Shown here in pieces: positions 15,461 through 47,885 of a stretch of 64,000 bases of DNA. Below the pieces are notes generated by a model. It had not been told where the DNA came from, searched no databases, and saw nothing but the letters and a program-made list of their open reading frames with translations. The stretch is from Ceratodon purpureus (Eukaryota; Streptophyta; Bryopsida; Pseudoditrichales; Ditrichaceae): positions 76,621,524 through 76,685,523 of the forward strand of contig CM026426.1 of assembly GCA_014871385.1 (NCBI GenBank). The letters are read 5' to 3'. Positions within the stretch are counted from its first letter, which is position 1. Every line of letters starts with the position of its first letter. Made by a program: the position numbers and the translations under genes.

Positions 15461-15482
15461 TGTTGGGGGGAAGCATCCTAGG
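15461..15482 (+). repeat. T1 left target duplication and terminal repeat
   Basis: TGTT at 15461-15464 is followed by GGGGGGAAGCATCCTAGG from 15465. The inverse is found at 35134-35155. The inverted match is 17 bp over the G5-to-TAGG core, with a mismatch at the outermost base. Confidence 0.75.
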
Positions 15483-16233
15483 ATGTCTAGGTAGGAACGT
15501 CACACTCTCAATTCTCCTGAATTTGTGATTTTTGAACTTCTGATTGGGTTTTCAGAAATTGAATTTTTTTTATTATTGTATTCCAGCAAGTTCCAACACT
15601 CCTTGTTTTTGCAGAATATGAAGAGATAATTTGAAATTATTGGTGTTTTGTATTCCTATGAGTTTAATTTATTAAAATATTCAGGAATGTCACAAGGAGA
15701 AGTCATACAGTCATGAACTTGTTACAAGTACATGGTGTGCTAGATTTTGAGATGCATTGATTCGGTTGGAGCGTACAATCTTATGCTATTTGCTATTGTT
15801 ATTTAGTTGGCAATAGTCTTGAAACTAATTTTCTAGAGAATTTTTGAAGTGGCCCCATCCTGGAATTATGAGGGCGCTGGAAGTAAGGAAAGGAAATTTA
15901 ACTCTTTTTTGTATTATTCCAATTTTGGCACCTACGTCGTTCCCTCCTCTAACGGCCTGTACTTGTTGATTGCATGCCAATGCGTTTACCTAGGAGTTAA
16001 CGTCCTTTTAGAATCAGGATATAGAAAAGGAAAACGACTCAATTCCTAAGAATTCGAGAATTCCTTGGACCATAACTTCCTTGGAAACTTTAAATCCCTG
16101 CCGTTAGATTAAGATCCAACTGCATGTCACGACACCCAGATTGGGATAGAGTCGTCGCTCTCCCCATAGCTCCTCCACTTTGACCGCGGCTGCTACTCTT
16201 GAGCGCAGTTGATGTATTCGAAGTTTTACGGGA

Positions 16234-16599
16234 ATGGGTTCACGACAAGGTTCGAGTAGTGCTTCACAAGCGTTGATAACCGATTTTTTTCAACAAGAAA
16301 GAGTGACAGAACCAGAGGTTGATGAGTAGGTATTTTATCAGGCGTTGATTACAGATTTCTACGGGGAGAAGGAAGAAACAGTAGAAGTCGGTCAATCATT
16401 TTCAGAGCACAGTTTCACTGATTCAGAGTTGCACAGACTCCAGGATATAGGGCCGCAAACCCCAATCTCACAATTAAGTTTGATATACTCAGATTGCACT
16501 CATGTTTCCAAAACCCCTGAAACTAGAGTTGCAAGACTCGACTTTGATTTTGATTCGGAGGTTCAGTCACAGATGCGTAAATGCTAGTGGTGAGGTAAG
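16234..16599 (+). CDS. First-exon candidate of the T1 plus-strand gene
   Basis: From the ATG at 16234 the frame reads MGSRQGSSSASQALITDFF and then, after one in-frame TAG (16327), continues FYQALITDFYGEKEETVEV to DFDFDSEVQSQMRKC. The piece QALITDF occurs twice, about 30 codons apart. The exon is acidic and low-complexity. A good splice donor, GAG/GTAAGTG, lies just after it at about 16596. It probably supplies the N-terminal tail of the T1 transposase or of a separate small protein. No domain is recognised. The TAG suggests decay or that the reading start is downstream. Confidence 0.4.
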
Positions 16600-17336
16600 T
16601 GTTGAATGTCTCTCTTGGAATGCCTAATGGGGTTCTTTCATATTTCATTTAATTTTGTTTTCAAAAATTTCGCAGTCTCTAATCATGACTTCCTATTTCG
16701 CAGGTACAAGGTTCGGTACCTAATCAGGAAGGAAGTTTGCTTGCGGTGGTTTAGGTATGAAGAGGATCGATTGTGATTAGAGCTTTTAACCCCTAACTAT
16801 CCTTAAAACCCGAAATGGTTTTTAGTTGTTCCCGCAGGAGAAAAAATCAGTCAACTTTGACCATTACAATCTCGCAAATGCAAAAGAATCGACGGTTCAA
16901 ATTTGGTATGTATGTAGAACTTCAAGTTAACTTTGAGATCCTACGGTTGGATTTTCTAAATAATGCTTAGATTGAGGTTTTTTGGGCCAGAAGTAGAAGA
17001 AGGTCAAATTTTTTGAATTAGGCACTTTTGCATCAAGGAAATTTAGGGGTTAAGCCAGTTTAGCGATACATAGATAGACCAGCCTTATATAATCTGCGAT
17101 AGGTTTTTGAAACGTTAATGTGGAGTATACTGAGTAGCTGGAGGTAGATACTCCACCGCTGACTCTCTTTAATAAACTATCTACTGCATTCCAATTGCTC
17201 ATATGATTCTGTAGAGTTGGTCGACTCCCTGTGCAGTAGGTAATTTGGAGCAGGCCTTGTGGTTGTCATCGTCAGGATTAAAATTCCAGCAAGTAGGATC
17301 GTTAGGTACTTTTGTTCTTTTGTAACAGTCGATAGG

Positions 17337-18092
17337 ATGGCTCCCCGCAGAGATGATAGAGGACTTGGAGAAGGTAGCAGAGCCCGATTAGCTGCTTAGG
17401 AGAACTTAGTTCTCAATAAGAAGAAAGCAACTCTCAGACAGAGGAAGTGCCGAGAGAGGAGGAAGGAGAGGTTACAGAGGGCGTGTCAGGGTAATTTAGA
17501 GAGTGATGTCAGTGTGGTCAATATCCAAAGGTCCTCTACTCGTGCAGCAGAGAATTTAGCTGTGAGGTGGTTCCATGACACAAGCAGTAGAGGAATAGAG
17601 TATCAAAGAGCCTTGATACCGAAGATTCTAAAGCACACTATTTGGCGTAATGTACTCCCTAATTATTCTAACATGGAGGTAGCCCACAGTGCCGTGGCAA
17701 ATATATCTCAGGGATGGCAGTATGTTAAAGGTGGTCATTCTAAAGACCAACAACGAGCCAGGCATGTGATCATTCCCATGCTTCTAAGTTCGAGTAGTAT
17801 TAGCGCTAGATAGACCAGTCTTTTCACTGGAATTCACAGACGAAACTTGAAGTCGGGTTTGGTGAGGAGGCTAGCGTTAGAGTCAAAATCAGATAAAAGC
17901 CTGTGGGCGGTTTGTGGACGGCAAAGGCGAGTTGACTGTCTACCTCCTCATGTGACGAAGTTGTTAGAAGACTATTGGACAGCAAACACCCGAATCAGTC
18001 CCAATAGAAAAGACGTCGCAAGAAAACGCATTGGTGTAAAGGAGTGGATTTACCACCCCACACATCACCTCACCAAATCTCATGTCAGTTGA
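17337..18092 (+). CDS. T1 transposase N-terminal exon(s), basic DNA-binding-like
   Basis: The ATG at 17337 starts MAPRRDDRGLGEGSRARLAA. After one TAG (17397-17399) comes a strongly basic stretch, KKATLRQRKCRERRKERLQR, of the kind that contacts DNA. Two blocks follow: KILKHTIWRNVLPNYSNMEV, then after another stop RRLALESKSDKSLWAVCGRQ and LLEDYWTANTRISPNRKDV. The last block aligns with VIAWWTAQTRPSPNWKEVV of copy T2 near 40.9 kb, with the same W, T, R, S, P, N and K spacing, so it is a conserved part of the transposase gene. A role in binding the terminal repeat is inferred. The remaining exons lie beyond the hAT insertion, at 21927. Confidence 0.5.
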
Positions 18093-18837
18093 TTATTCTC
18101 CTTTTGTTACACACAGTGTATGGTAGTGGTAATGTCCAAGGTACCAGTATATTCACTTTACAAAGAACGTCGATACACTGACTGGTCGATGCAGTCTTTG
18201 TTACTCAGTCTCGGCCCTGAGCTATAACCAAAATAAAGCAGTCTTTGGAAATCACATTGGTTTTGTCTAGGCTAACTTGCTTACACATGATTTCATTCCG
18301 TTAGTTTCTAGACTTTTATCCAAATTTTTTCTCCACATTTCAGTTCTTCGGTTCATTTTGATTTCTCCTCGGGTTAGTTGATTAATATCATATTTAAGAA
18401 GCAATTGGAGTCGAGGTAATGCTGAACTACTAACATGTTCAGTGTGCTAATCAGGAAACGATGCAGTGAGTGCAGTCACTGTTACTTTATCTCAGACCTT
18501 CAGGATGCATAATAAATGGACAGTAATCTCTGGAAATTTTAGGAACAGTTCTGTTTAGGAATTAAAGGAATAGTAATTCAAGGAACAGTAATGTCTACCT
18601 AGGAATTGAAGTCTCAAGGAGTTTAGGAACAATTATTCTAGGAATAGTAATGTGTAGGAACACTAATGTGTTTCCAGAAATTCAAGTCGTCATTTTTAAA
18701 TTTTTATAAGATTGCCGCAAAAGAGAAGTATATTGCAAAAGAATTGTTTATAAGCCCTCATCGGGTGAGGCACAGGGCGGGGGTTGTGGTCATGTATTTC
18801 AGTTCCAAGTTTCACTATATTTTCTTTCCTAATAATT

Positions 18838-18845
18838 CCTGTGGA
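18838..18845 (+). repeat. 8-bp target duplication, left copy (hAT insertion)
   Basis: CCTGTGGA precedes the CAGGGTTGT end of the inserted element. It is repeated exactly at 21905-21912 after the ACAACCCTG end. Confidence 0.9.
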
Positions 18846-19049
18846 CAGGGTTGTTCATGGGACATAAGGACCGGTCCGTCCGTCCGGTCCGCTCGTCCGT
18901 CCGTTAAGGGTCAGGGGAGGTCCGTTTGACCAAGACTTACGGTTGACCATCCAAATGGTGAAATGGGAGTTACCTTGGCCACCTAGGATGCCACGCGTCT
19001 GACATGTCACCAAATATTCCACATATAGAGTTGACACGGGGGATGACAT

Positions 19050-19570
19050 GGCTAAGAGGAAGGGCACCAACGCCTTGGGGGAGGGGGGCGCCAGCATCCT
19101 TGGGGGGGGGGGGGGCGAGAGCTTCTTAGGGTGGGGGGGGGGGGAGGGGGGGGCGCGAGCTTCTAAGGGGAGAGGGGGCAGCGCTTCTAGGGGGGGGGGG
19201 GGGGGGGCGCGAGCTTCTGAGGGGGGGGGGGGCGCGAGCTTCTGAGGGGGGGGGGGGCGCGAGCTTCTAGGGGGGGGGGGGCGCGAGCTTCTGAGGGGGG
19301 GGGGGGCGCGAGCTTCTGAGGGGGGGGGGCGCGAGCTTCTAGGGCGGGCGCGAGCTTCTTGGGGGGGGGGGCGCGAGCTTCTGAGGGGGGGGGGCGAGCT
19401 TCTAGGGGGGGGGCGCGAGCTTCTAGGGGGGGGGGGGGGGGGGGGCAAGTGCTTCTAGGAAGGGGGGAGGCAAGTGCTTCTAGGAGGGGGGGCAAGTGCT
19501 TCTAGGAGGGGGGGAGGCAAGTGCTTCTAGGAGGGGGGCCCAGAGCTTCTGGGAGGGGGGGCGCGAGGTT
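19050..19570. repeat. G-rich minisatellite, left arm
   Basis: About twenty units of 18-30 bp read GCGCGAGCTTCT followed by AGG or GAGG and a G-run of 7-17. The last five units are a variant, GCAAGTGCTTCTAGGA. The same units occur on the other strand, in mirrored order, at 21230-21690. Dense G-runs make G-quadruplexes likely. The proline- and arginine-rich ORFs here are artefacts. Confidence 0.85.
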
Positions 19571-19767
19571 ATGGGTTTAGGGTGATTCTGGAGAACGGGG
19601 CATACAATTGATATTTTATTTTTTCCGTTCCATTACAAAAATAACAATAAAATTTTATTCTCCACAAGAGTATATAGCCGTCAAAAAAAGATTTATTACG
19701 ATTTTGCAAACGTGTAAACAAAGCCATATAAGTAATCAAAATGTTACATATGCAATTCACTATGGTT

Positions 19768-20004
19768 CTACAATGTGCCTCTAAAACAACTATCAGGAGC
19801 TTTGAAGTTGTAAGGGGGACTCATAAAATCATCCACAACTCTTGCAAGTGATAGCCTCATCGTGGGGTCTTCGTTAAGCAAGCCATTCAATTTCGTTGAG
19901 AATGCAATCATTGACATTGTATCCTTGAAGAGGTATTGGCATTGTTCGTCCCTCCATATCATCTTTGCCAAATAGCCTACCGAAAATGCATTAGATTGCT
20001 CCAT
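19768..20004 (-). pseudogene. Captured protein-kinase-like C-lobe fragment, left copy
   Basis: A 78-codon frame begins MEQSNAFSVGYLAKMIW and contains LNGLLNEDPTMRLSLARVV. This resembles the end of a eukaryotic protein kinase domain (subdomains X-XI: SVGYLLxxI, then LLxxDPxxRLSxxxVL). There are no ATP-binding or catalytic-loop motifs, so it cannot be a working kinase. The inverted copy at 20796-21032 gives an identical peptide. It was probably captured from a host kinase gene by the hAT-like element and duplicated with the foldback arm. The kinase identity rests on motif shape only. Confidence 0.5.
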
Positions 20005-20795
20005 CCTGGAACTCTAAATTTTATATTATAATCCCCTTTCTCTTCCAATATTAATGTTTCATCCCTTAATGTTTTGTGCATACTTCCCTTTGTAATGATT
20101 CATTTATTTATTTCTCTTCCAACCTTGTTCCACTCTATACAATTTTTTATTTTTTTTCCCTTTATCTTTCTATATTAATATATTTTTTTTTTTTAACTCT
20201 TCCATTTATTTTTAATTGTATATTAGAGCATTGTTTGTTTCTTCCGTACTAAATTGATTAATTATTCAAATTTTTATTTCTCTTCCAACCTTCTTCCATC
20301 CCATGCTATTGATTTTATATTATCCCTTTCTCTTCTGATTTTAATGTTTGTTTTTTTGTTTTTTTTTTAATCTCTACCATTTTTTTTTAATTCTATGTTA
20401 GAGCATTGTTTGTTTCTTCCGTACTAAATCAATTAACTATCTAAATATTTTTAATTCAATGTTAATTCATTGTTTGTTTCTGGCATACTTCCTTTCATGA
20501 TTATTTATTTCTCTTGCAACCTTCTTCCAATCTATACTCTTAGTTTTATATTTTTCCCTTTCTTTTTCAATATTAAAGTTCGATCTATTTTCATCTTTTC
20601 CATTTATTTTTCATTTTGTGTTTAAAAATAAATGGAAGAGTTAAAAAAATAAACAAATAGTATAGAATGGAACAAGGTTGGAAGAGAAATAAATAAATGA
20701 ATCATTACAGAGGGAAGTATGCACAAAACATTAAGAGATGAAACATTAATATTGGAAGAGAAAGGGGATTATAATATAAAATTTAGAGTTCCAGG

Positions 20796-21032
20796 ATGGA
20801 GCAATCTAATGCATTTTCGGTAGGCTATTTGGCAAAGATGATATGGAGGGACGAACAATGCCAATACCTCTTCAAGGATACAATGTCAATGATTGCATTC
20901 TCAACGAAATTGAATGGCTTGCTTAACGAAGACCCCACGATGAGGCTATCACTTGCAAGAGTTGTGGATGATTTTATGAGTCCCCCTTACAACTTCAAAG
21001 CTCCTGATAGTTGTTTTAGAGGCACATTGTAG
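20796..21032 (+). pseudogene. Captured protein-kinase-like C-lobe fragment, right copy
   Basis: This is the inverted twin of 19768-20004, with all 78 residues identical. The flanking 63-codon frames (19569-19760 and 21040-21231) differ by a single residue, T versus A in LIxYMALF. Arms this similar mean the inversion-duplication is recent or is kept identical by gene conversion. A read-through transcript would fold into a perfect kinase-fragment hairpin. Confidence 0.5.
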
Positions 21033-21229
21033 TACCATAGTGAATTGCATATGTAACATTTTGATTGCTTATATGGCTTTGTTTACACGTTTGCAAAATC
21101 GTAATAAATCTTTTTTTGACGGCTATATACTCTTGTGGAGAATAAAATTTTATTGTTATTTTTGTAATGGAACGGAAAAAATAAAATATCAATTGTATGC
21201 CCCGTTCTCCAGAATCACCCTAAACCCAT

Positions 21230-21690
21230 AACCTCGCGCCCCCCCTCCCGGAAGCTCTGGGCCCCCCTCCTAGAAGCACTTGCCTCCCCCCCTCCTAGAA
21301 GCACTTGCCCCCCCTCCTAGAAGCACTTGCCTCCCCCCTCCTAGAAGCACTTGCCCCCCCCCCCTCCTAGAAGCACTTGCCCCCCCCTCTCCTAGAAGCA
21401 CTTGCCCCCCCCCCCCCTCAGAAGCTCGCACCCCCCCCCCCCCAGAAGCTCGCGCCCCCCCTAGAAGCTCGCGCCCCCCCCTAGAAGCTCGCGCCCCCCC
21501 CCTAGAAGCTCGCGCCCCCCCCCCCTCAGAAGCTCGCGCCCCCCCTAGAAGCTCGCGCCCCCCCCTAGAAGCTCGCGCCCCCCCCCCCCCCCAAAGAAGC
21601 TCGCGCCCCTCCAAGAAGCTCTCGCCCCCCCTCCCAAAAGCTCTGGCCCCCTTCTTAGAAGCTCGCGCCCCCTTTGAACTCGCTCGCGCA
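21230..21690. repeat. C-rich minisatellite, right arm
   Basis: Inverted counterpart of the 19050-19570 array, with AGAAGCTCGCGC units separated by C-runs and AGAAGCACTTGC variants on the outer side of the kinase fragment first. The run lengths differ from the left arm, as expected for slippage. Confidence 0.85.
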
Positions 21691-21904
21691 CCCCTTTGCA
21701 TATGTGGAATTCCCCGTCATCGTTCGTTGTCCATGTCATCAATATGTTTCCCCTATAGGTAAGTTGTAAAAAGAAAGAACTAACTTAGTAATTTTCCTCC
21801 TCCCCTCAATGTCCGATTATGTCCGGGGACCGACCGGTCCGTCCGTCCGTCCGTCCGTCTATGTCCGGAAATTTTGCCCATGTCCGTCCGAATAGACAAC
21901 CCTG

Positions 21905-21912
21905 CCTGTGGA
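21905..21912 (+). repeat. 8-bp target duplication, right copy (hAT insertion)
   Basis: CCTGTGGA directly follows ACAACCCTG and is identical to 18838-18845. Confidence 0.9.
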
Positions 21913-21926
21913 TGTTGCCTCCTCAG

Positions 21927-23780
21927 CTTTCCTTCTACACGCGCTTCAGAGTAGCTCATAGTGGCGTCGAAATTGGAGTGCGCTCTTTTGAAGCATTCAA
22001 ACCTTGGTTTGTGCGGAGAATGCGGGAGTTCAATTCATGCTGCTGCAGATACCACGTGCAGATGGCTGAACTGAAGGATGCATTGAACTTCATGCGCCGT
22101 GGAATAGTGCACAAAAACTGCTCCTGCCATTGTGACGTGTGTCGACCAGAGGGTGGAGAGGGTGTTTGCAAAGCATCGGAGGTGACTTTTCACTCAATTA
22201 CAAGACTCTGTGAAGAAGTTCTGTGCCAAAAGCATGATGATGAAGAGTTTCATGCACTAAGTTGCATTCGGGGTGATTGTACATTGTGTGGGGCTACGAA
22301 GTTGAAGATTTGCCCCAACGAACAATCTGAATCTACAAATGCTCTGGTTTCCTGGAAGCTGTTTGAGATGGTATTCGTCGGGAGGGTTGAAGACGGCAAT
22401 GACAGGCATGCACTTCATTTGGAGCATAAGATGACCCCACCGTGTGACTTAGTTGCATCTTTGCGGTCCCACTTGGAAGAATTTTTGGTCCACAACTTTG
22501 AGGCAAAGTGGCAGGATCAACAGTTCAAGGTATGCATGGGAAACCTAAGTCCTGATGCAATTGTTTCGGTTGTAGATTTCGCAGAAAACTATGCATTTAA
22601 GTGGCAGAATGAAGTTCAGTCTCAGCATTGGTTTAGTTTTCAAGTAACAATATTGGTTCATATTACATTCCGAATTCATCTTGAATGGGATGGGTTGGAT
22701 CCTGTGAATAAGATACTCACGGAGTATCACTTTTACATCAGTGATGACAAGTCGCATGATAACAATTTTGTTCAATACTATTTTGGGCTTCATAGAGATT
22801 TTTTGAAGGAACAAGGGTTTCTTTTCCCGGTGGAGCACATAGTCTTTTCTGATGGCTGTGCCTCGCAATTCAAGTGTGCGAAGTCATTGTATTTCGTTGC
22901 AAGATATCCTTCTCTGACAGTATCTGAAGAGCTACCCCTTGGCTGCGTGATGCAATGGGATCATTTTGGTACGGGTCACGGAAAAGGCCAGTGGGATGGA
23001 GCAGGGGCTCACGTGAAGGAGGCACTACGCAGGGAGCAAGTTAAACCAAACGGAGTGAGACTACACTACTCCTGCGACGTAGTGACTTTCCTTCGTGAGG
23101 CTATGAACCACGAATATGCTGGTTATCGCAACGCCCGTAGATCTGTACATCGCTACTTCTATGACGTTAAGGAATTGGACGTTAACTTGTTCCAAGCACC
23201 GAATGCACGCACTGTAGAGGGTACTAGATCTTTTCATCAAGTTCGAAGTGTTGGGCTTGAGGGGACATCCTTGCACGTTCGAAGACTCTCCTGCTTTTGT
23301 AGATTTTGTTTAGATGGTGGAGACGGACCATGTGACAATCTAGGTTTAGTTGAACCTTTTACGCTGATTCAGTTAGAGCCATGTGAACCGCAAGCTCTTA
23401 CAAGGCGTGATAGGAGGCGACTTGATTTGCAGCCACCTCAATTACATCCACGCATGACTGCTCATGAGGCACTTGCCGCCACATTGGAGGTTGGAGACCA
23501 TTTTGCTGTCCTGGCAGATGATGGATCCGGCTACCCTAAATTCTGGATTCTTCAATGTCAAGAGCCTCTACACGGTGTCCAGGAAGATGTGATGGAAGAT
23601 ACCTGGGGTCAATCAGTTTATCGTGGAGTGCAAATTGTTACAGGTACTTACTACAAGCAAAGGGGCAGCAGTCGTTCTTCATACGTCAGAGAAGATCCAC
23701 AACGACCTGCTTTCATTTATTCTCACTTGGTGGTGGCTACGAAATTCAATCTTCTAGTAGCCACACATCGCCAGAAATGA
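21927..23780 (+). CDS. T1 DDE-type transposase, main exon
   Basis: An open frame of about 617 codons begins after the acceptor CCTCCTCAG at 21926; the open frame further 5' lies in the inserted hAT end. Near 22040 it reads CCCRYHVQM followed by LKDALNFMRRG, then the cysteine-rich CSCHCDVC. The catalytic core shows VVDFAENYAFKWQNEVQ (first Asp, about 22575), QVTILVHITF, YHFYISDD, then FSDGCASQFK (second Asp, about 22850) and HFGTGHGKGQWDGAGA (about 22980). A second zinc-like cluster, CFCRFCLDGGDGPC, lies near 23292. DFAENY, SDGxxxQFK and HGKGxxDG occur in the same order in a transposase family I remember from cnidarians and molluscs. This exon is unbroken. Copy T2 is a diverged homologue along its whole length. 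Confidence 0.8.
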   Translation, partial: LSFYTRFRVAHSGVEIGVRSFEAFKPWFVRRMREFNSCCCRYHVQMAELKDALNFMRRGIVHKNCSCHCDVCRPEGGEGVCKASEVTFHSITRLCEEVLCQKHDDEEFHALSCIRGDCTLCGATKLKICPNEQSESTNALVSWKLFEMVFVGRVEDGNDRHALHLEHKMTPPCDLVASLRSHLEEFLVHNFEAKWQDQQFKVCMGNLSPDAIVSVVDFAENYAFKWQNEVQSQHWFSFQVTILVHITFRIHLEWDGLDPVNKILTEYHFYISDDKSHDNNFVQYYFGLHRDFLKEQGFLFPVEHIVFSDGCASQFKCAKSLYFVARYPSLTVSEELPLGCVMQWDHFGTGHGKGQWDGAGAHVKEALRREQVKPNGVRLHYSCDVVTFLREAMNHEYAGYRNARRSVHRYFYDVKELDVNLFQAPNARTVEGTRSFHQVRSVGLEGTSLHVRRLSCFCRFCLDGGDGPCDNLGLVEPFTLIQLEPCEPQALTRRDRRRLDLQPPQLHPRMTAHEALAATLEVGDHFAVLADDGSGYPKFWILQCQEPLHGVQEDVMEDTWGQSVYRGVQIVTGTYYKQRGSSRSSYVREDPQRPAFIYSHLVVATKFNLLVATHRQK

Positions 23781-25070
23781 GGACGAGGAGGTACACAGGT
23801 GTACAAGCTCACAGCTGAGGCGCAGGAGCATATTCATTCTCAGCTTCTGGTTCTCGACTAGTACATTTCATATAGTACTCTGATTAGAATATTTCTTAGT
23901 ATTATTTTTACTTGGTACTGGTTTCTCTACGAATCTCTGAAGAGCAGGAGGTATTTTTTTATTTATCTGTGTTTGAAGTTTGGTTTGGTGTAGTCACATT
24001 CGGTAACTTGGGATCTATATGGTTTAGTTACGTTTGATGTACTGTTCCTAGAATTTCAGTTGGTCAAAGGATTAGTAAAGAAAGATCGACCCATGAACTT
24101 GAAAATGTTGTTATTTTAAGGATCATTGTATTTGGGATCGAATTGTACAAATTGATATCAGTCGCTAACTGTTTTCAAAGTATATCGTGTGGATGTCATT
24201 GGATGAAATTCATATGATTTAGATGAATATAACCCGACTATTCGTGCAAGTTCATTCCATCGACAATATTTGGTGAAACTATATATTCCTATACAATAGT
24301 AAAAATACATTGGAATCAGCCCAGATCCTCAGAAACATTTCTAACCAGAGACAGTACGTACACCAGAACGAATTCTTTCGTTTTGATAAGTGATTTCCGT
24401 TTCAAAAAACAACTGTCATAATAAGATTGGGTATCACATACAATATTCCACCTACCCCCCAAGTAATAAAGATGGATAGTACAAGAACATTATATAATGT
24501 GATGGATGAAATCATATTGCCCAATGTTTTGAGATAAAAAATTAGAGGAAAAAAAAATAAAAAATAAAAATAAATAAATAAAAAAAATTAGAATATGTGT
24601 CATCATGCAGTTGGCTAATAAATAGTATGTTCCCTCAAATAGTAATTTTGATGGATAATAGAAGAAGAATAAAAAGTGTATTGGATGACATCACATTCTC
24701 CAATGTTAAAATAAATAAATAATTAAAAGAATTCTTAAGTTATAACATGTGTCATAAATTCCATTTGGATTCCATTTGTTGATCAATCTAATTAAGACAC
24801 GTGTTATATTATTTTTTTTTTTATTTTACCTTAAAAATTTGATGTCTCTGTGAGCCATTCTATTCTTTATATACTATCCACGTATATTAGTATGCGTGGT
24901 TTTTTTTTCTTAATTTGTATGGTAATTTAATAATGACATGTATTAAAAGTATTACTTTATGTATTACACTTTTATAAACCCCAGAAATTCTGACATTACT
25001 TCATATACAATACTTGAGAATATGAAAGAAGCATTTCCTTAACAATCTTTGATGAAATTGATGGTGTGAA
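23781..25070. other. AT-rich gene-free stretch with diverged direct repeat
   Basis: No gene is seen. Two direct copies of about 180 bp lie at about 24435-24620 and 24625-24800. Shared phrases include TGATGGATAxTAxAAGAA, CAATGTTxxxATAAA and ATGTGTCAT. The copies are heavily diverged. Confidence 0.45.
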
Positions 25071-26758
25071 ATGAATAAAGTGAGAGTGAGTTATTTGGTT
25101 TCAGTTTCCCGCCTAGATACTCTACAATCAAGGCTTGCCAGCTGTTTTCACGGTACAGCTGCACGAATCCAACCATGCCACGTATTTTCCCGGAAAATTT
25201 TCTCGAGAAGTCCCCTGCCTACATGGCGTTTAGGGTTTCAGTTCAGCCGTTGGTCTTCCTTCTCGCCCATCACTCTTTCTTTTTGGATAGATCTGTTTTT
25301 GCGAGGTTTTCCACTGTAGAGGGGTTTCACAGTCTTGTTCGTTTCGTTGTGCATGTTTGTTAGGGGCCTGTGGATATGGTTGAGGATTATGGAAACCGCT
25401 AGATGAATGAAGTACATTGGGGCGGATTTCTGAGCAAGATTTAGTCTGCTCCTAGAAGCAAATTCTCCTTGTGTTTACTCTGCGGCAGATTCTATGGAGA
25501 ATGGGTCTTCCAGAACCCTACGAGTCTGTGGAGATGTATCGCTATAGGAATAACCCGGTTTATTTCTTCGTAGGAGTGTTTGAATTGTGGGATCCTCATT
25601 AGAATCTGAGTCAGCACAAGATCCTCCAAGGAACTACTTGTTTTGGGTTTTAAAAACGAATTCAAATGGATGTGACACCTTGGGTGTCGGCAGCCATTAC
25701 TGGGAGTTGACATTGTAGATTTCCGCCGCCACTAATCTCTCCTCGTCATTCTTTGTATAAGGGTTATTGAGTCATCTTGAATTCTATAGTACTCGTCTCC
25801 CTCCCGAGCAAGCTCTTGGATTCTAAGGGCTCCTGTTATTCTTTAGCGTTTCCAGAGTTGCTACTTAGAATGAGCTTCTATCCTAGACTTGTTGCGCTGC
25901 TTGAGAAGCTTGTTTAGTTTAGGTGGGAGACAGTTTGTGCATTCAAGGAGTGGGCAGGGGTGTTGGAGTTCCTGTGGGTCACGGTTGTACCGTGGTAGTG
26001 GGTTTAAGTGTAGTGGTTCTAGTAGGAAGGAGTTGTTTTGTCTTAGAAGGTTCATTGCAAGAAAGCGAGTTCTTGGAGCACAACCAGGAGGGGGGTACAA
26101 GGACATAAGGTACCTGTTGCAAGCTTTAACGAATCAGGTTCTTAATCACGTCCATCTTTTCCTGAATTCCAATTCAATATTACCGTGACAGCTCTCTTCA
26201 AGGTTGCAATCAGTTTGCAGTCTTGGTTGAATTCTGCTTTGAGTTATGTTTCAATACATTAAATCCGTGAAAACCCGTGTTCTTGCAAGCCGCTAGTAGT
26301 ATCCTGCTTTCTAGTGTTGTGTGTTACTTGATTAGTCGTGTTTATGATTTTGTCTTTTAGAACAATGAATGTCTAATCCTTAGGGGGGTACGAGGAGCTC
26401 AGGTACCTGCTGCCACCTTCAACGAATCAGGTAGTAAATCACGTCCATCTTCACCTGACTTCCAAATCTACATTACTCGTGAGTGCCCTCTTGGTTGTAA
26501 TCTGTTAGCTGACATTGGTCGAATGCTGTCTTTCCCTACATTGAATCAGACTTTGTTTTACTTGATCACTTGTGTCTATGTTTCTGTCTTTTAAAACAAA
26601 CATTGTTTATGCCTTATGACTGTCCCTTCGAAATTATGAATGTAGGAACTATCATTCATTTTCTGCAGTGGGTGTTGGCTTTCAATTGTGATTCGAATTT
26701 ACCAAAGACTGGTCCTTTGATGTGTTTGATAATAGTTACAGTCCTCATTTACAGGAAG
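25071..26758 (+). other. Leader-like region with 293-bp spaced direct repeat
   Basis: The stretch near 25220-25260 (GTTTAGGGTTTCAG) looks like plant 5' leader sequence, but no convincing exon is resolved. A segment of about 160 bp at 26088-26250 recurs at 26383-26545, an offset of 293 bp. Shared phrases include GGTACCTG, AACGAATCAGGT and AATCACGTCCATCTT. This is an old tandem duplication just upstream of the next gene. Confidence 0.4.
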
Positions 26759-29304
26759 CTCGCTCTGAATGCAAGGACTTGCTCCGACAATACTTACTTG
26801 GAGGTACAATGCGGGTTATCCAGCACCACCTTAGAGAAGGAAGTTTATAACTACAACATTTGATCTCCTATGGGTGAGGTAAGTCCCTTTCCTTTCCAAT
26901 TTCCTTGTTCATCAATGGTATCCTTTCCAGTTTTAATGAAACTATTGGTTAGGTTCACCATCCTTTCACGTGTCTTCCTTGTCCATGTGTAGTTTACGTC
27001 AAAGGACTATGAAGTTGAATTCAGGAGATTATGTTCCTTTTTCAAGTAATTCATGATGACTTAATTCCTTTTCTATTGCTTAGGGTTCAGGGTGAGAAAC
27101 TGAATTTCAGGAATGACAAAGACCAACTCCTACTGTCGAAGACTTCAAGGATCATAGACGGTGAGTCCTGCACGGGCCTGTCCTCCTCCTGTTTTAATTT
27201 TACTTACATGTTCCTTAATCCTTGATGTGCTTTCTTGTTTTCCTTGTATTTTCTCGGCTCTTGTCACCTCCTTTCCATACTATACTTGCTTTTGGGTCCT
27301 TGTTCCTGACCATGTATACTGTTTTCCTTTTCCTAGCTATGCAGTTATACTATCGTAGGAGATACTTGTATCGGGTCCTGGTTCCTAGACATAGGTATCA
27401 TACTTTTATACTGTATCTAGATACTGTTTTCGAGTCCTGGTTCCTGAATTTAGTTGCTTTCATACTTGTTTCCACTCCTTGTTCCTTGTCCTACATACTT
27501 TCATGCGGGTTTTCCGGTCCTTGTCCTATAATTCTTATTAGATTACTTGTTTTGTTTCTAGTCCTTGTTCCTTGTCCTACATACTTTCATCCGGGTTTTC
27601 CGGTCCTTGTCCTTTAATTCTTATTTAATTACTTGTTTTGTCTATTATTGTTCTTGAAAACACGTATGACAATGGACTTGAAGGTTTTCTACTACGGGGA
27701 GAAGGGCTGGTTCAAGTATGTGACAAGGCTGAATGGTGATGGGCTCATCCCTGGATCTACCCTCACTGGGGAGCATGTTAGCAAGGAGCAATGCAAGAAA
27801 ATGTTTGTGTATGGAGGACGGCAATCAAACAATGGTTACAAAACCAACCTCTGGCCTTCGTTTTTCAATGAGAGAGTTTCGTGGCTATGGATTCGAGTTC
27901 ATCAACAAGAGAAGCCAGCCAACAATGACTTCGGACTCAGCTTTGTCCAAGGTCTGCTTCACGAATACAAGACCAATGAGGAAGTAGATTGGGTAGGTTT
28001 TGCTGCTTGCACTGTGAACCGTTTCACTCGAACGAAGGGAGTGAATCAGGTTCATCTGTTCTGGGCTTGGGCACATCCCTCAGTTGTGACTGACGTTGGC
28101 AGTGGTCTCCCTGTTCAGACAGACTACAAATTTCCCGTGGCTCTAGGCTCTAGACCTGTTCGGTGTACAATGGCCACCACATTACCCATCGTAAGACCCT
28201 AAGATATTGTTTCTTTTAAATCAAATTATTTTCAAGCATTTGTCAGTTTATTTCCTCCTTGTGTGCTCACATTTGTCTTAGGATTCCAATTTGTTTTCTG
28301 TAGCGGTTACCGATATTGGAGACTGAACAGGGCACACGCAGAGGCAAGCGTGAGAGATCTCCATCTGTTGAAGATTCTAACTGGGACAAAGAGAATGAGA
28401 GAAGAAGGAAGAAATATAGAACCAGGTCACAAGTGAAGTACGAGAGCCCTCTACAGAAATTGGAACACATGGCAAGATCTTCAACTGGGGCACATGGGTC
28501 TTCTTTGATGTCTATGGATGCAGAACTTCTCCAAAATCTTTCTTCGTCAGAGCCCAAGACACAGTCCCCGTTGGAATCTTTGCCGATGACCAAGTCAGCA
28601 TTGGATTCGCTCGCCAACACCGACTCAATCCCGGGATCAGCTCGAAGAAGTCTGGTAATGGCGTCGGATCAGGCTCCAAGCTGCTAGCCAAAGGAAGAAG
28701 ATGCTAAAGACCTCGCCGGGTATCCAGAACTTCATCTCATTTTCTGAATCTATTCATGCACACATTCACCACTATATGTTGACTTTGTGTTCTAAAGTAT
28801 ATTTTTTGATTGATGTATTGGATTTCCGCACAGTAGGATCCTTTCCTCTAATGTAAGTGTTTTATTTTTATCCAGACCCTCTGATCCTTCAAGAATCCCA
28901 AGCAGTGGACCGAATACAGAGAAAGTATTGGCGGCACTTCACCACTTTGGAGCAGTAATACCAAAAGTGGTTGAGAGTGTAATTTCTAACCTCGATTTGC
29001 AAAAGAAGGAGTTGCAGCAGGCGTATGTCGTTGCACAAGAGTTTACTTCATCTGCAAACAGTGCTAGGGCTGAACTCTCTACACAGCTTGGAAGGCAAGA
29101 CTAGCAGCACGTGGAAATCCCAGTGACGAAGTTCAAGGTGAAGTCCGATATCTTGAGTGTGGATTGAAGTATGCGGAAGGGAGAGTGGAGGCTGCAGTTA
29201 CTAAAGAAAGAGAGGCCCTGCTAGCATTTCAAGCTCAGTGCACGAAATTAGAAGACATGCGGAAGGACCAGTGGATACTAGAGGAGTATTTCATTTTCAA
29301 GTAA
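26759..29304 (+). CDS. Second T1 plus-strand gene, multi-exon, unknown function
   Basis: Exon candidates are about 26759-26880 (EARSECKDLLRQYLLGGTMR, after CATTTACAG), 27085-27161 (ending ACG/GTGAGT) and 27666-28190. The last starts MTMDLKVFYYGEKGWFKYV and contains PSFFNERVSWLWIRVHQQ and VNQVHLFWAWAHPSVV, ending CCCATC/GTAAGA. Exon 28304-28687 (after TTTCTGTAG) is basic and serine-rich with NLS-like RRGKRERSPS and ERRRKKYRTRSQVK. Exon 28876-29304 is coiled-coil (NLDLQKKELQQAYVVAQEF, then after a one-base frame change YLECGLKYAEGRVEAAVTK). No family was recognised. The NLS-like patches suggest a nuclear protein. It lies between the transposase and the convergent RING gene inside T1, so it is probably element-encoded cargo, partly decayed. 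Confidence 0.42.
27477..27650 (+). repeat. 86-bp tandem duplication in an intron
   Basis: The phrase GTTCCTTGTCCTACATACTT starts at 27481 and again at 27567, an 86-bp period with two copies. The whole stretch 27225-27650 is built of degenerate CCTTGTTCC and TACTTG phrases. It lies between exons of the second T1 gene. Confidence 0.7.
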
Positions 29305-30690
29305 ACCGAAGCCGTTCCTACGAATTCAGGTCTATTCCTTCCATGGGCATCATGTTTAGGTATTGATGCCTTAATTGTCAATTATTTCTTTCTTTATGAT
29401 GATATGTGTTTAACATTCTATAAATTGCTTTGCAGTTCAGTGCTCGTGTGAAGGCCAAAGACTAAGGCAATTTGCAGAAATCGGGACATGGTGCGCAGTT
29501 GGTGCATGCGTTATATTGTTTTGTTAGAGTTCTCTTCTAGATTCGGTGTATAATGTATAACGGATGCTATCTTTTTCATTTCTGGTTCCTTATTATCTAT
29601 GATTAGTACAATGTGAGGACTGTGCATATTAACTCACATGTAATGACCCTGAACCTAGGAATTCAGTTACAGTATTCAGTGAATATTATAAATTTACATA
29701 CACTATCAATATTGTCATTCGTTTGTAAAAGTTTATGCTTACCATAAATTTGTAAGAAGATCCTAGTTGATTGTGTCTTATCAAGTCCAGATGTAGGTTT
29801 GGTTATTAGGATTGTCAGTGGTTTTTTCATTGTTGAGCTTATTTAATTTCTCCTGCAAGAGTCTGCGATTTTGAATTTGTTCCAGTTAGTACTTGTAGAC
29901 TGACAATGAACCGAGACTTCTACTGATCGAGCTACAAGCATAACTTCTGACATACTCTTGTAAATCACAACCTAGTGTGTAAATGAATGGTATTCTTATC
30001 TGGTTGCACAATAGTCATTGTATTGATGGAGTGTGCGAGCATTATATTTTGAGTAGAAGCGTGGTTGTCTTTGAGCAGCTTTGTGAACAGTATCCTATAC
30101 ACAAATAAGTTTGCAATTGACTTACGAAGATCAGAATTATTCGACACCAAAGTTTCCAACTCCCCAGTCTAGTGTAGTAGCAAAGTCGTTCCTGTTCAGA
30201 ATATCCATTATCATTGCAATCCTTTATTCCATTTGTGAGATGCTTACGAGATTGGTTAGGAATCGAAACTTCTAAACTAAAAAAAATAGCATTTTAAATA
30301 TTTGGCGATTGAGAATTCGGCCACAGTCCTATGGAGATATGACCAGCTTGGAAGCTATGATAAGTAAATGTGACAACCTTGCGGTCATACCATATTCCTT
30401 TGGGGAACTAAGCAATATAACGGACTCGACCCTGATGGCCATTCTTATGAAAACAAATGATAAAATTCTAGACTCCCGTTTGAATGCACGGAATGAGGAA
30501 AACTTAGATCATATTAATTACATATATCGTACACCAACAGCATCCAACACCACCAAGTTCAATATAATTATGCTTCAACAAAAACAAATAATCATCAAGA
30601 AGGGACCACAGAAATAATATAATGAACTTGATTGCTGAATGGGTAGTTTACAGAACAAACTAAATCATATTCAATTCTTATTTCCAAATC
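29305..30690. other. Intergenic stretch between convergent T1 genes
   Basis: The stretch is AT-rich with no recognised gene. A 102-codon plus-strand frame at 30309-30617 has no family signal and is probably chance. The 3' ends of the two convergent T1 genes face each other across it. Confidence 0.4.
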
Positions 30691-33600
30691 CTACACTCTA
30701 TCCTTCCCTCCTCTCGTTCTTCCAGAATGTTTTCCACCTGAGGATGATGGGGGAGAGATGTCTGCAAGCAATTTCATTACCTCCTTGTGTTGACCACCTT
30801 GCCTTTTCAACCTTGTGGATCTTTGAGCTGTGGTACTTGTTACAGGGTTCTTCCTTTTCCCACGAGAAGCTTGGACTTCTTTTGACCCTTCTTGCTCAAC
30901 CTGGTCTCCTTCTAATGGGGTCCCTATTGGATCAAGATCAAATTCACCTGTTCCACCTCTACCGTTTTCCTTACAGGACACTACAGCTCCCTGGTTAGTT
31001 TCAGTTGGCCCTAAATGCGGCCCAAGTTCATCGTTATGAACTTCCTCAGCAGACCCCTCCTCATCTGGACTGGTGTCAGTGGCCTGTTTATCATTTGATT
31101 CTTTTTCTGGGATGTTGTTAGGAATGGGTTCCTGCTCAGTATCCTCTTGAGAAGAACTACTCGCCAATAACCGCTTCGGTTTATTCAAAACTGTCGTAGG
31201 CACCGGCTGGATAAATTCAGCCTCATCTTCTGATGTGTCATCCGAATCTGATGATAGATCTGGTTCTTGTCCACCAAAAATTTCCATACCATTTCCACTC
31301 TTCCTTGGACAAGGATTTGATCGACCAGTCTTCTCGTCAACTTCAGGATCAATAGCACAGTTGAATGCACTTCCAAGTGCTAACGGAGCTAGTTGCGGTA
31401 CAAGCTTTGAATCCCTGGCTCCATCAACAATATCTTGACAGGTCGGACAAAGGAATATGTCACCTGCACATCCCTTACAAACGCCAGAATGCCCACAAGG
31501 CTGCCAAAAGAATTGCACAAGTATCAGTAAATTATATTGGAGTGAAGATAATTTAATTAGTAAAAATGTTTGCGGAATTTATATAACATCTCAAGTAAAG
31601 CTGGAAGGTAAGTTGCAGCACCTGCAAAGTAACACGGAGATTGCCTGGTCGCTTGCATACTAAACACTCCTCCATATCATCCGAGCCTTGGGAATCATCA
31701 TTAACATGGGCCATGGCTTCTTGTGATGATTGGCTGCAGTTGCTACGATAAATGTCCTGCTCACTCTTTTGTTCACAATCGAATTGTAACCCGTCAATAG
31801 ACCGTGATTTCTCAGTGCCCCTTCTGATTATGTCTGCTTTCCCAGAGCTCACAGGTGTGCCTGTATGTATTCGATATGTCTGACTAGGTCTGCTTGCTTC
31901 AGAAGTATCACCCAAAGATATTCCATCACCTGAAATCACCAAATGAAATGCACAACAAGATCAGTGGACATAGAACATCGGGAAACAATTATGTATACAG
32001 GAAACTAAATTCTTGAACAAGGAATACATTCCTTAAAAAATGAACCGATATCCTTGATTAGGACAGACAACAGGAACTTTTAGGACTAACAGTAGAGTGT
32101 TGAGTCACGAACTTACAGGACTAGGAGTAGAGTGGTAAGGGTGATACTTAAGGAACATAATCTAAAAGGAGTAGTAAGAGGACCAAGGACCTTATACACT
32201 TATTCCTAAATAAATATCCTAGCGTATCTGTTGTACCAGGAATGAATAAATCTACAAAAGGAAAGGTAAAAGTATACAGGAAAAAATCCTTGGCTATTCG
32301 GTCAAACAGTAATATAGTACTCTAGAGACAGTCTTGAAAGAAAGTCATAGAGCATATAGGAGCAGGAAGACAGTATTCGGTAAGGAAAGCCAAAATGCTA
32401 TGCAGGAAGTTAGTTCCTAAATTCAGACTCTGATTCCTAGGACGCAAGGAAGTAATAAAATAAAAACAAAGGAAAGAAGTATGTCCACACAGCTGTGTCC
32501 AGAGTCTCCTTTTAAACAAAGGAAGAGGAAATACATCAGGAAAGACGTAATAAAATAAAAACAAACGAAAGGAGTGTGTTCACATGGCTATGTCCAGAGT
32601 CTCCTATTTAACAAAGGAAGCGGAAACAAATCAGGACGTAGGATAACAGCTCAGAACTAGGAAAAACATAAACAAGCAGATTAGGAAATAGAAGTAGAAC
32701 TCAGTAATTGCCATTGGAAACATGAACATCGTAGGCTAATCTAGTGCTGTCTCCAAGGAGTCTCAGTAATCTATGGAAAAAATTATGAGCACCTTCCTAT
32801 TCAACTGAAAGGAGTCATAAAATTCTATAAAAAACTTAATCAATAATTTAATGTTAAAACAACCCACAAAAATGCAAAATCTGCCAGGTCCGTGTTTTCC
32901 TCGTAGAATAGAATAGAAATCTTACCAGACATTCGACCAGAGATCGGACTGCCTTGGGTGACATCAGGAGTTGGCACAGAGGAGGGGGTTTGAGGAAAAC
33001 CCCACGATAATCTCCACGGGGTCAAATTCCTTGTCACAGAACTCTTCAATACACAAATTTGACTTTGAGGAGTGACTGATTAGACAGAAGGGGTGATAGC
33101 AATGGCCGCATGAAGTCACAGCAATATTGTTGCAATGAAAGTCTTCACCACAAACTGGGCAGTTTTCTACATACAGAATATTACTCTCTCTATGAAATTC
33201 TTTCGGCCTCTATATTGGGGAGGGACTAAATCTATGTACAGTACCATACTTCAACAACCCTAGGTAATTGACAACTAAATGTTGGAACTGCTCCATGCAA
33301 GCTTGACTACGAAATACAGAATTGTACCTCTTCGTGCATGCTTCCATGCTTTCAGCTAAACGGCACACTGAGTCTCTATTTCTTCTATTTTTAGAAGGGC
33401 GTGCTTACTGTTTTGTTCCCCTAAACGCAACTGATCCTCTAATCCGGAAATCCTAACTGCAACGGAGTCATCTGAAGAGGAAGTCGAGTTACAGTGGGAA
33501 AGATTAGGAGAAGAGTGGCCAGGACTAGAGTAGATAGGATTACTAGAAACTCCTTCGTCTAGACAATTTGTCCACATATCAACGTATTGACTTGCACTTT

Positions 33601-34661
33601 CTAACGCAGCCTTGACCTTTAGAACTTCAGATTGAGCAAACTCGGCAATGGATTTTCTATCACTGCACATTATCTTGGCTCTTCGAAGATCCAACTCTCT
33701 CTCCTCCTCTAAGCTCAAAACCCTCAACCGCTCCTTTGTTGCTATGAATCCTACCTGGGCACTAGCCAATAGACACTGGATTCTCTCAATGGTCTTGACA
33801 TTACTTTCCTTGACGCTACTCAGACCAAGTTCATGCTTTACGACACCCTTACCACGCTTACTGGAGGAAAGGGAATCCATCCTAGGCCGCAAATTAGGTG
33901 TTGGTGGCAGCTGTGGACGGTTGCTATCAATTGGTAGAGACGGCAGAGAGACACCTGGCCGTTCACTAAAGCCTGAACCTTGCTCCAGAGTGATCGTAGG
34001 AGAAGTAGGAGGCTCAGATAAATCACCCTCCAAGGATACAGAGCGTAGGGCTTCTTTATTGCTCACGCCAAATTCGGGGAGTTGAAGTTTCCTGGTGTGA
34101 GGTGAACGAAGCTGCTCTGCCCTTGCTCTCCTGCTGTCCTCGAGGGCTCGCCGTTTGCTGTAAGCAGCTACTGCATAAGCGGCCCAATTAACATGTATTT
34201 CCTTGATCTCCGCCACAACTCCACGAGCAAATTCCATGGAGATTGTGTCATTTAACATAGACTCTCTTCAGAAAACACGGCGGTAGAGATCTTTTATTTG
34301 GCGCTGAACCTCAGGTGAAACGTCCCTGGTAATCTTCCAACCATTCTTATCGAACCTTGGCCCCAAAACATCCTCAATTTCTTGAAGGGAAACATCACTC
34401 TCAGTGAGGGATTTCATTGGACGGCCTTTACCTCGCAATCCCTGCCTATTCACAAAAAAATGAAGGTTGTACACAACCTGCAAAGACAAAGTTCCGACGA
34501 GAAATTAGACAAGCAACATTGTTGTTTCCGCCGTCAACCCTAAACCCTAAACCATAGCTATCTCCAAGCAAAACACTTCCAAAAAAAACTTGCAGCCAAA
34601 GCATCGAAGACAGAGAAGCCATGGTGTGAGGTATGAAGTTCTGGTGTCCTACCGCAGCCAT
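30691..34661 (-). CDS. T1 convergent gene: coiled coil plus two RING-type fingers
   Basis: The start is MAAVGHQNFIPHTMASLSSM at 34661. The next exon begins at 34477 after CTTTGCAG (VVYNLHFFVNRQGLRGKGRP), and one in-frame TGA (34268-34270) interrupts it before MLNDTISMEFARGVVAEIK. A long charged, coiled-coil region follows, to about 33356. An exon from 33166 carries a RING-like cluster (NCPVCGEDF, SCGHCYHPFC, LCIEEFC). Exon 31929-31622 ends ECLVCKRPGNLRVTLQ and splices over a 121-bp intron (31501-31621) to PCGHSGVCKGCAGD and LCPTC, an IAP/MUL1-style C3HC4 RING spanning the junction. The acidic C-terminus ends at 30691. Such RINGs usually recruit ubiquitin E2 enzymes. Frame changes near 33340 and 33000 indicate decay. 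It is related to the 48.4-51.4 kb pseudogene. Confidence 0.6.
31501..31621 (-). other. Intron splitting the C3HC4 RING domain
   Basis: On the minus strand the boundary is TTTGCAG/GTGCTG to TTTTGGCAG/CCTTGT. Removing the 121 bp brings ECLVC together with PCGHSGVC in frame and completes a textbook RING spacing (C-x2-C-x10-C-x-H-x3-C-x2-C-x6-C-x2-C). Confidence 0.7.
32452..32640. repeat. 95-bp tandem duplication
   Basis: GTAATAAAATAAAAACAAA occurs at 32452 and again at 32547. Each copy is followed by a matching GTGTCCAGAGTCTCC-like or TATGTCCAGAGTCTCC phrase. There are two copies of 95 bp in an intron of the convergent RING gene. Confidence 0.75.
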
Positions 34662-35133
34662 TGAAATACAAGACAGCCGACAATCAAAACAAAGGGAAAT
34701 CGAAACAACGTGCAATCAACAGAATTGAAGTGAGGAGAATATACGACAATACGATTACCTAAGACATACATATTTTTATTCCTAAAAGATGTTGCGAAAA
34801 TTCTAAGAGCCAGTACGCCGTAGGCGGAGAGACGATGGAGAACAACTTCTAGTTCGGAGAGACAATGGGCAACTTTCGGAGGGACGGTTGCAACATCAGA
34901 ACTTTCGGAGAGACGATAGCCTCAAGTTCTCTAAGAGAGTAGGGGAAAAATTCGAATTCAAAGGGACAGGCGGCATGCGAAGGAACAGGGGATGCGAAGG
35001 AACAGAGATCAAGCGAACCACTTTCCTGTTAAACCGACCAATAAGATAATTACGAATTTATAGGAACAAATAATTCCAAATATTACATCAGGGATACTTT
35101 GATTCCTTGGTCCTTAGTTCCTAGTGGTACCAC

Positions 35134-35155
35134 CCTAGGATGCTTCCCCCTTGTT
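35134..35155 (+). repeat. T1 right terminal repeat and target duplication
   Basis: CCTAGGATGCTTCCCCC (35134-35150) is the exact inverse of the left end core. One divergent outer base (T, 35151) follows, then TGTT (35152-35155), matching the TGTT left of 15465. Confidence 0.72.
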
Positions 35156-39270: not shown

Positions 39271-40287
39271 GGCTTTTTGATGATTATCTATTCCTTCTTA
39301 GGGGCCATAAATTTGAACATAGATTCTCAACTTGATTACAAAGAGAATTTCATAATTATATTTAGGGTTGCTTCTTAAAATAAAGAGTTGGGGACTTTTA
39401 AAATGGTAGTATGGACTATGGTCAGCTCCATATAGAATGGAATATGTGCCACTTTGAGTAAACAAATGATTTTGTTATTGTGTTGGTGACTCACTATAGG
39501 TTGTATGATAGTTTGAAGTACCTATAAATGCTGTCTTTGGTAATGATATTGTTTTTGAAAGAGGCCTTATGGACTTTTAAAGAGGCTGAATAACATCAAA
39601 TTCTAAAAAGTCCATAAAGGAATAAAAAGTTGGTTTTTTCCCCTCAAAAAAATGGAATAGTGAATGTTTCCTCCATCTACATGTGGGCTCCGTAATGAAA
39701 GTAGAATTTGGTATTTGGAACATTTGCTGTTCTAGGGCACAGTCTTGTTTGACGGATGGAACAAATTGGATGATCAACATAGTATGTCGATGAATGTCAC
39801 TAGGGTTTCACGAATGGATGTAGGATTTGGGTTTAGGGCTGGCGGACTTGGAGTTTGCAAACCTTTCCGACCAAGGACTCTCTTGATTCCTTGCGCTCAC
39901 TTCCATTGCAGCAAGTTAACTTGGCTATGGCAAAGTTTAATTTTGTACACAGAAGCTATGGTTTCTTGTGTACAATGTGATTCTATGGCTTGCTGAAACC
40001 GTTTCCATTGCTTTTGCTTAAGAATGGCTGCGATGGTTTTGTGAAGTTGGAGGTCTTAGGGTTTCGGATGTGTGCACTTGTTACTGGATCTATTGACATT
40101 GTATGTTTTGTAGCCGCTTCAGTGTCATAGAGTCAAGGTTTACAAACTGTCGAAGAAAGTACTGCTCGTCATCAACTTGTTTTCTTGGCTTTTGTTCTCT
40201 GTCCCATTTTGTATGGTTTACAAGTTGTTCAGGGTTTAAACGGCAAGGGGAGAACGGAGTCCTAGCTTTGTTTCTTAGTATACCAAT

Positions 40288-43200: not shown

Positions 43201-43518
43201 TACTACCAAAAATACGGCATTGGAGCTGACACTTATGTGTTTTTAAAGAAATCTCAAAAGGCTCACTTGAATGTCGAAAATTTTAGAGCTACTAAGTTTC
43301 CAATGATTATTGCTGACCATCGTGTTTCAAGAAATCACGCTGTATGTAAATTGCCTAAGAGTGTTGAAGAGGCAATAGTGAAATATGTGTAACCAGATTG
43401 CACAAACTGCCTTCCAGCTGTTATGAAATTTTGGCAAGATACTGTGCCTTGCCTTGTTCTTGGAGAGGCACCTTTTATTGAGTCTAGCCTAGCGCAGGAC
43501 CCTCCAATACAACACTGA
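40288..43518 (+). pseudogene. T2: decayed relative of the T1 transposase
   Basis: It starts MGSQRARERRVSVKRPSPTE, and a basic stretch contains at least two stops. VIAWWTAQTRPSPNWKEVV at about 40920 matches T1 YWTANTRISPNRKDV. After an intron-like gap (41070-41560) come PYFVRKLND and CCCIYHVE (T1 CCCRYHVQ), then IDFAENYSFKIQNEVQ (42160), YHFYISDDKKHD, WSDGCAGQFKS (42435), GLGHGKGPHDGTGA (42540) and CVRKLAYFCVACIDYKWGGC (42850), all in T1 order. The usual HW after NEVQ is HR. Stops and frame changes occur near 41655, 42465, 42815, 42930, 43007 and 43090. The last block (GRYYQKYGIGADTYV) matches the T1 C-terminus. No terminal repeats were found. It is older and more decayed than T1. Confidence 0.72.
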
Positions 43519-45452: not shown

Positions 45453-45487
<35 letters not shown>

Positions 45488-47655: not shown

Positions 47656-47885
47656 AAGTTTTTTTTTTGAAGTTAGATAAATCTCTAGAGGGTCTATCTA
47701 GATTATGGTGACTTCAAATAATTAAGAAGCAACACCAAATGCCCCCATTTATTATTTACATTTCATTCATACATTTATTTTTATTTATTTATATTTTTTA
47801 TAATTATTTTTTTCCCATAAGTAGTCATTACACTAAATGCCGTCATTTATTATTTACATAGTGTTCATACATTTTTTTTCTTTTT
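47656..47885 (+). repeat. Satellite array, outlying units
   Basis: Nearly two more units of the same satellite (CTCTAGAGGGTCTATCTA and AGCAACACCAAATGCCCCCA) lie beyond the interrupting segment. The array was therefore once continuous. Confidence 0.8.

Follow-up and report, generated by a model that had tools for sequence, protein, structure and literature searches.

This analysis concerns a stretch of 64,000 nucleotides from the moss Ceratodon purpureus (assembly GCA_014871385.1, contig CM026426.1, positions 76,621,524 to 76,685,523), referred to at its full length as the window, and in particular a segment of 19,687 bp within it, 15465-35151, which is supported as a DNA transposon with true ends and is called element 1 below. 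We consider it most likely to be an inactive, large, intron-bearing cut-and-paste transposon of the Sola superfamily or of a close sister to it. Its ends, with the flanking target-site duplication (TSD) and the terminal inverted repeats (TIRs), are as follows:

15461..15464, no strand: left 4-bp TSD, TGTT
15465..15482, plus strand: left TIR, GGGGGGAAGCATCCTAGG
35134..35151, minus strand: right TIR, reverse complement AGGGGGAAGCATCCTAGG
35152..35155, no strand: right 4-bp TSD, TGTT

The two TIRs agree at 17 of 18 bases, the sole mismatch being the outermost base, and the right end viewed from outside reads AACA followed by AGGGGGAAGCATCCTAGG. Chance was gauged on 20 first-order Markov sequences of 61 kb each, in which non-repetitive 17-bp inverted pairs turned up at a mean of 0.15 per sequence, and none of the 20 contained a 14-bp inverted pair bordered by identical 4-bp outer bases. 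Since the window is rich in mobile DNA and a hAT-like element is nested inside element 1, one could imagine that the termini stem from different elements and that 15465-35151 is a mosaic of several insertions; against this stand the agreement of both TIR and TSD at the two ends, the empty result of the simulations for the 14-bp plus 4-bp combination, and the recurrence of the same gene order and orientation (transposase, RING gene) in a second element of the window, so that a mosaic is very unlikely.

The true ends and the 4-bp TSD are further supported because two 737-bp elements, miniature inverted-repeat transposable elements (MITEs), share the terminal sequence GGGGGGAAGCA:

12613..13349, plus strand: MITE-a, 737 bp, with GGGGGGAAGCA at its ends and TGGT as TSD on either side
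56769..57505, minus strand: MITE-b, 737 bp, probable TSD TGGG

The MITEs lie in opposite orientations and align with 697 identical positions, 38 mismatches and 4 gaps. The terminal 11 bases are common to element 1, MITE-a and MITE-b, with some bases in the G-run at one end of MITE-b altered from GGGGGGAAGCA. The right side of MITE-b is TGGG, and its left side is a T followed by ten G, which is compatible with TGGG and no proof of it; a 4-bp duplication starting with TG is accordingly seen in two clear cases (TGTT and TGGT) and one probable one. The Repbase rule for grouping non-autonomous elements (PMC4455052) asks for equal TSD length and for positions 1-11 to align with at most one mismatch. 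MITE-a agrees with element 1 on each of these points and, judged by its termini, is a non-autonomous relative of it. The palindrome GTGGNCCAC occurs six times in the window, four copies lying near MITE ends (12631, 13323, 56787 and 57480), one near the left end of the second element (39217) and the sixth at 6721, away from any known end; a variant, GTGGTACCAC, lies at 35124, near the right end of element 1. Those near ends sit 7 to 28 bases inside them. A binding site is a possible reading of the palindrome, suggestive only, the four MITE copies being non-independent.

The original prediction had placed inverted-repeat ends 19.7 kb apart with TGTT outside both and had called them very likely true. 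Both statements stand, as does the 4-bp duplication, which is backed by TGTT of element 1 and TGGT of MITE-a; the grounds are the TIR, the TSD and the companion MITEs, not the argument first offered, namely that removal of the element joins both flanks into a single open frame of a long interspersed nuclear element (LINE). A LINE was found on the left, on the minus strand, with reverse transcriptase at 9032-9667 (Pfam RVT_1 at 9380-9667, E=1.6e-7, above cut-off; a second RVT_1 match, E 0.0048, is below it), and MITE-a is embedded in coding-like sequence upstream of that reverse transcriptase. In the right flank LINE coding was not recognised among minus-strand frames of at least 85 amino acids (aa) inspected by eye, nor by Pfam in the two open reading frames (ORFs) scanned. 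The joined frame is uninformative about the ends because frames of 129-173 aa arise at every removal length from 0 to 8 bases (131, 162, 173, 130, 161, 172, 129, 160 and 171 aa, respectively), and it was rejected as proof.

The transposase of element 1 reads inward from the left end and has the following parts, the first of them only putative:

16234..16582, plus strand: putative 5' coding stretch with one in-frame stop (by eye; ATG position checked)
17337..18091, plus strand: N-terminal exon, helix-turn-helix-like by eye, with two in-frame stops
21927..23780, plus strand: catalytic exon with predicted RNase-H core (acceptor at 21927 proposed from comparison with moss protein P0018)

The catalytic candidates are aspartates at 22575, 22851 and 22995, conserved in 53, 53 and 51, respectively, of the 53 rows of the family alignment, and their positions agree with the RNase-H order in the predicted AlphaFold2 (AF2) structure. 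These two results bear out the DDE-type transposase that had been proposed. The N-terminal exon aligns with the corresponding exon of the second element (40611-41066) and by eye resembles the start of P0018, while the stop of the catalytic exon falls early relative to P0009. The same AF2 structure has a beta-rich C-terminal region (residues about 470-611 of exon 21945-23777), perhaps a domain of the chromatin-binding type. The putative 5' stretch has two tandem motifs within 16267-16362 on the plus strand, QALITDFF at about 16267 and QALITDFY at about 16339, which we take to be PCNA-box-like, their tie to the transposase being putative; the motif gave five matches over the listed relatives, none at an N-terminal position like that in the window. 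A single-sequence structure prediction (predicted local distance difference test, pLDDT, 33) was discarded. Reading TAG, TGA or TAA as sense brought no general gain by eye, and the stops are better read as decay.

The transposase family has 222 database relatives, and among the 120 of them listed are proteins of moss, liverwort, conifers, molluscs, a hemichordate and a sea urchin. None of those 120 bears a transposon name or a transposase domain, and a Pfam search of 60 family members at E<=0.01 gave five families with one member each, none of them a transposase or integrase. Within the sensitivity of the scans, the viral, prokaryotic, phage and plasmid collections yielded no relatives, and a sequence search of the PDB found none either. 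Foldseek of the transposase model against PDB and BFVD gave no match at E<=0.001, with the C-terminal region barely covered, and Rfam gave no match either.

Between the two transposase exons lies a younger guest:

18846..21904, no strand: nested 3059-bp hAT-like foldback element, TIR CAGGGTTGT

It has CAGGGTTGT at both ends and an 8-bp TSD, CCTGTGGA, at 18838-18845 and 21905-21912. The hAT superfamily is characterized by CAGGG-type TIRs and 8-bp TSDs; the nested element has both, as hAT foldback elements do. It consists mainly of G-rich arrays and of 718-nt inverted arms that are 97% complementary, with no transposase gene noticed inside. The insertion is later than element 1 and probably lies in a transposase intron, flanked by the exon 17337-18091 and by the one that starts at about 21927. 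Removal of the nested element with one copy of its TSD leaves about 16.6 kb for element 1. Arrays of the nested element such as GGGGGGGCGCGAGCTTCTAGG have a unit loosely like the start of the element 1 ends, a G-run plus AAGC.

Element 1 has two further genes, the second reading forward and the third convergent to it:

27663..28199, plus strand: gene 2, N-terminal domain, with 8 relatives 60-93% identical
28304..29303, plus strand: gene 2, likely further exons with basic and coiled-coil stretches, interrupted (by eye)
33359..34477, minus strand: gene 3, N-terminal domain and coiled coil, with one premature stop and one frameshift
32967..33209, minus strand: gene 3, first RING-like finger, CPVC..CGHCYHPFC, below the Pfam cut-off
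30694..31930, minus strand: gene 3, C-terminal part with a C3HC4 RING across a 121-bp intron, 31501-31621

The eight relatives of gene 2 came from 30 candidates. Gene 3 has a single relative among 4996 candidates, P0129 (509 aa), which aligns with 96% of the 303-aa query at 40% identity and has one uninterrupted frame, a coiled-coil-like stretch and a RING-like finger near its end. The RING that spans the intron of gene 3 is recognised by Pfam as zf-C3HC4_3 (35.1 bits vs. a cut-off of 27); the first finger, conserved in P0129, has a best Pfam E of 0.0019, below cut-off. Of the double RING originally described, the finger across the intron passes Pfam and the first one is RING-like only. Otherwise the description of the second gene and of the convergent RING gene holds, with the addition that the two look related. 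A RING pattern, written after two of the fingers had been seen, was run over the six frames of the window and gave three full matches, at 33161, 50110 and 1298, all on the minus strand. Pfam finds the first RING-like below cut-off and no RING at 1298, and the one at 50110 is known by the pattern alone.

As to the relation between the two genes, a gene-2 profile set against the start of gene 3 scored 20.9 bits (E 1.2e-8; single target, the stop read as X, HMMER filters off). Among 1239 ORFs it matched 50960-51220 (E 2.5e-5) and a 656-aa ORF at 663-2630 (E 0.003) and gave no match to the gene-3 ORF beginning downstream of the stop; against P0129 with default HMMER filters there was none either. 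By hhalign with gene 2, the 656-aa ORF has a probability of 83, while gene 3 (probability 7, E 0.0047) and 50960-51220 (probability 8) are weak. Genes 2 and 3 seem to share an N-terminal domain, clearly so in one test and weakly in others, and we read the whole as one accessory family with an N-domain, a coiled coil and a RING.

With stops in both transposase exons, and a premature stop and a frameshift in gene 3 relative to P0129, this copy of element 1 is very probably dead.

A second, related element, element 2, lies to the right of element 1:

39201..52516, no strand: candidate ends, 24-nt arms (39201-39224 and 52493-52516) 88% complementary
40611..43389, plus strand: transposase, decayed, same family
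50000..51220, minus strand: convergent accessory gene, interrupted

The transposase profile matches element 2 in six pieces over 41492-43389 (best E 2.5e-55), preceded by the N-terminal exon at 40611-41066, and 191 of 525 aligned positions (36%) are identical to the transposase of element 1. The accessory gene has a gene-2-like N-domain at 50960-51220 and, by our own pattern, a RING-like finger from 50110 downwards. Both elements are laid out alike: a left-hand transposase read rightwards faces a right-hand RING gene read leftwards. A strict inverted-repeat scan for the ends of element 2 gave one chance-like pair. A looser scan gave the 24-nt arms, which enclose both genes and include 16 bp exact, its longest match, as well as several 12-13 bp inverted repeats of chance-like appearance. 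The arms may be the ends of element 2; the TSD is ambiguous, the repeat running on through a palindromic TGCA. A third accessory-type gene is found near the left edge of the window:

663..2630, minus strand: third accessory-type ORF, 656 aa, with gene-2-like motif and coiled coil

It has RING-like spacing at 1298, where Pfam does not recognise a RING, and is uninterrupted, unlike the decayed accessory genes; its element would reach leftwards out of the window, as would its transposase, should it have one.

Since hosts commonly have RING proteins of their own, genes 2 and 3 might be captured host genes carried as passengers rather than working parts. This is quite unlikely, in that element 2 has the same pair of domains in a gene pointing towards a related transposase and the nine database relatives (eight of gene 2, one of gene 3) are unnamed predicted proteins, none labelled as a host gene.

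The assignment to Sola depends on published description. According to that description (PMC10741241), Sola elements have a DDD transposase, a 4-bp TSD, variable TIRs and, in some cases, a length of more than 15 kb, and are reported from bacteria, a moss and metazoans. Element 1 shares the DDD transposase (53, 53 and 51 of 53 rows), the 4-bp TSD (TGTT in element 1, TGGT in MITE-a, TGGG in MITE-b ambiguous on one side), the size above 15 kb, the variable TIRs and the occurrence in a moss, the comparison being one of description and not of sequence. Bacterial relatives of the family were not found in word-based scans of genome contigs, which miss distant ones. An accessory set with RING and N-domain, as in element 1, was not found for Sola in the literature searched, and no description of a RING-bearing Sola element was found there, most subscription papers lying outside it. 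Sola had been named as the nearest guess, and it gives the best fit for the two published traits amenable to testing, DDD transposase and 4-bp TSD; membership itself is unproven, and we would class element 1 as Sola-like rather than as a proven member of Sola.

It is possible, though doubtful, that the family is instead a separate superfamily that makes 4-bp TGNN duplications and has an N-domain/coiled-coil/RING protein as its characteristic partner. The lack of any transposase or integrase Pfam family among the 60 members, the lack of a transposon name on the 120 listed relatives and the absence of the strings DFAENY and DFSENY from the literature searched speak for it; the DDD transposase and 4-bp TSD, which are those of the published Sola description, speak against it. 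Sola groups are also described as highly divergent and as differing in their termini, which again weighs against a superfamily of its own.

MULE, hAT, Kolobok, P, Dada, Ginger and Academ elements all encode DDE/D transposases, and Kolobok makes a 4-bp duplication, so each might be thought of for element 1; that it is one of these is extremely unlikely. Academ elements are characterized by a helicase and an Academ transposase, and no helicase was found in the seven element ORFs scanned. The integrase core expected of Ginger is present in none of the 60 members by Pfam (E<=0.01). MuDR/VANDAL elements resemble element 1 in having a transposase and an accessory protein of their own, with convergent genes near both ends, but have longer TSDs and a different transposase family, and the 60 members have no MULE Pfam match. 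According to one account (PMC9587614), hAT, P, MuDR, Kolobok and Dada have a C/DxxH signature between the second D and the last acidic residue; it occurs in only 2 of the 53 rows of our alignment, families outside that list not being excluded by it. Kolobok, with its KolobokE/H/P accessory genes, is by the same source (PMC9587614) like element 1 in its DDD/E transposase, 4-bp TSD and extra proteins, but combines the signature with a TTAA target, whereas the duplications here are TGTT and TGGT. Academ, Ginger, MULE, hAT and Kolobok were set aside on these TSD, C/DxxH, Pfam and helicase results.

For a Sola-like element 1, the transposase would bind the G-rich ends by its helix-turn-helix-like N-terminus and cut there with its RNase-H D-D-D site, insertion would take place at staggered 4-bp targets starting with TG (TGNN), and the same machinery would also mobilise the non-autonomous 737-bp elements that share these termini. 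The accessory family was probably duplicated to give gene 2 on the forward and gene 3 on the reverse strand, and its product probably aids the transposase or opposes host silencing, perhaps as a ubiquitin ligase; that the RING proteins may regulate the transposase or counter silencing is a guess from the type of domain. After insertion, the hAT-like foldback element would have entered the probable transposase intron and the genes decayed. A bolder version, which we think unlikely, is a lineage, possibly a superfamily of its own, whose transposition at TGNN targets depends on a dedicated N-domain/coiled-coil/RING ubiquitin ligase that has been duplicated convergently.

Elsewhere in the window, a transposon-type gene split into several frames lies at 60411-62850 on the plus strand, with DUF7869 (PF25273) at E 1.9e-21 and 3.5e-14. 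A series of long open frames with a coiled-coil region and conserved-looking stretches at 5101-8294 on the minus strand is perhaps another unnamed mobile element; the frames scanned there had no Pfam match above cut-off. The words AGGAAC and TAGGAA are denser inside element 1 than outside (AGGAAC 28 vs. 5.8 expected), but are clustered, may be simple repeats and were not used as evidence.

The family to which element 1 belongs is widespread yet unnamed, as judged from the 120 listed of its 222 relatives, and the defined ends, 4-bp target and MITEs enable its annotation. The presence of the RING accessory family at two transposase-bearing elements and at a third locus raises the question of whether a transposon's own ubiquitin ligase controls its transposase or the silencing imposed by the host.
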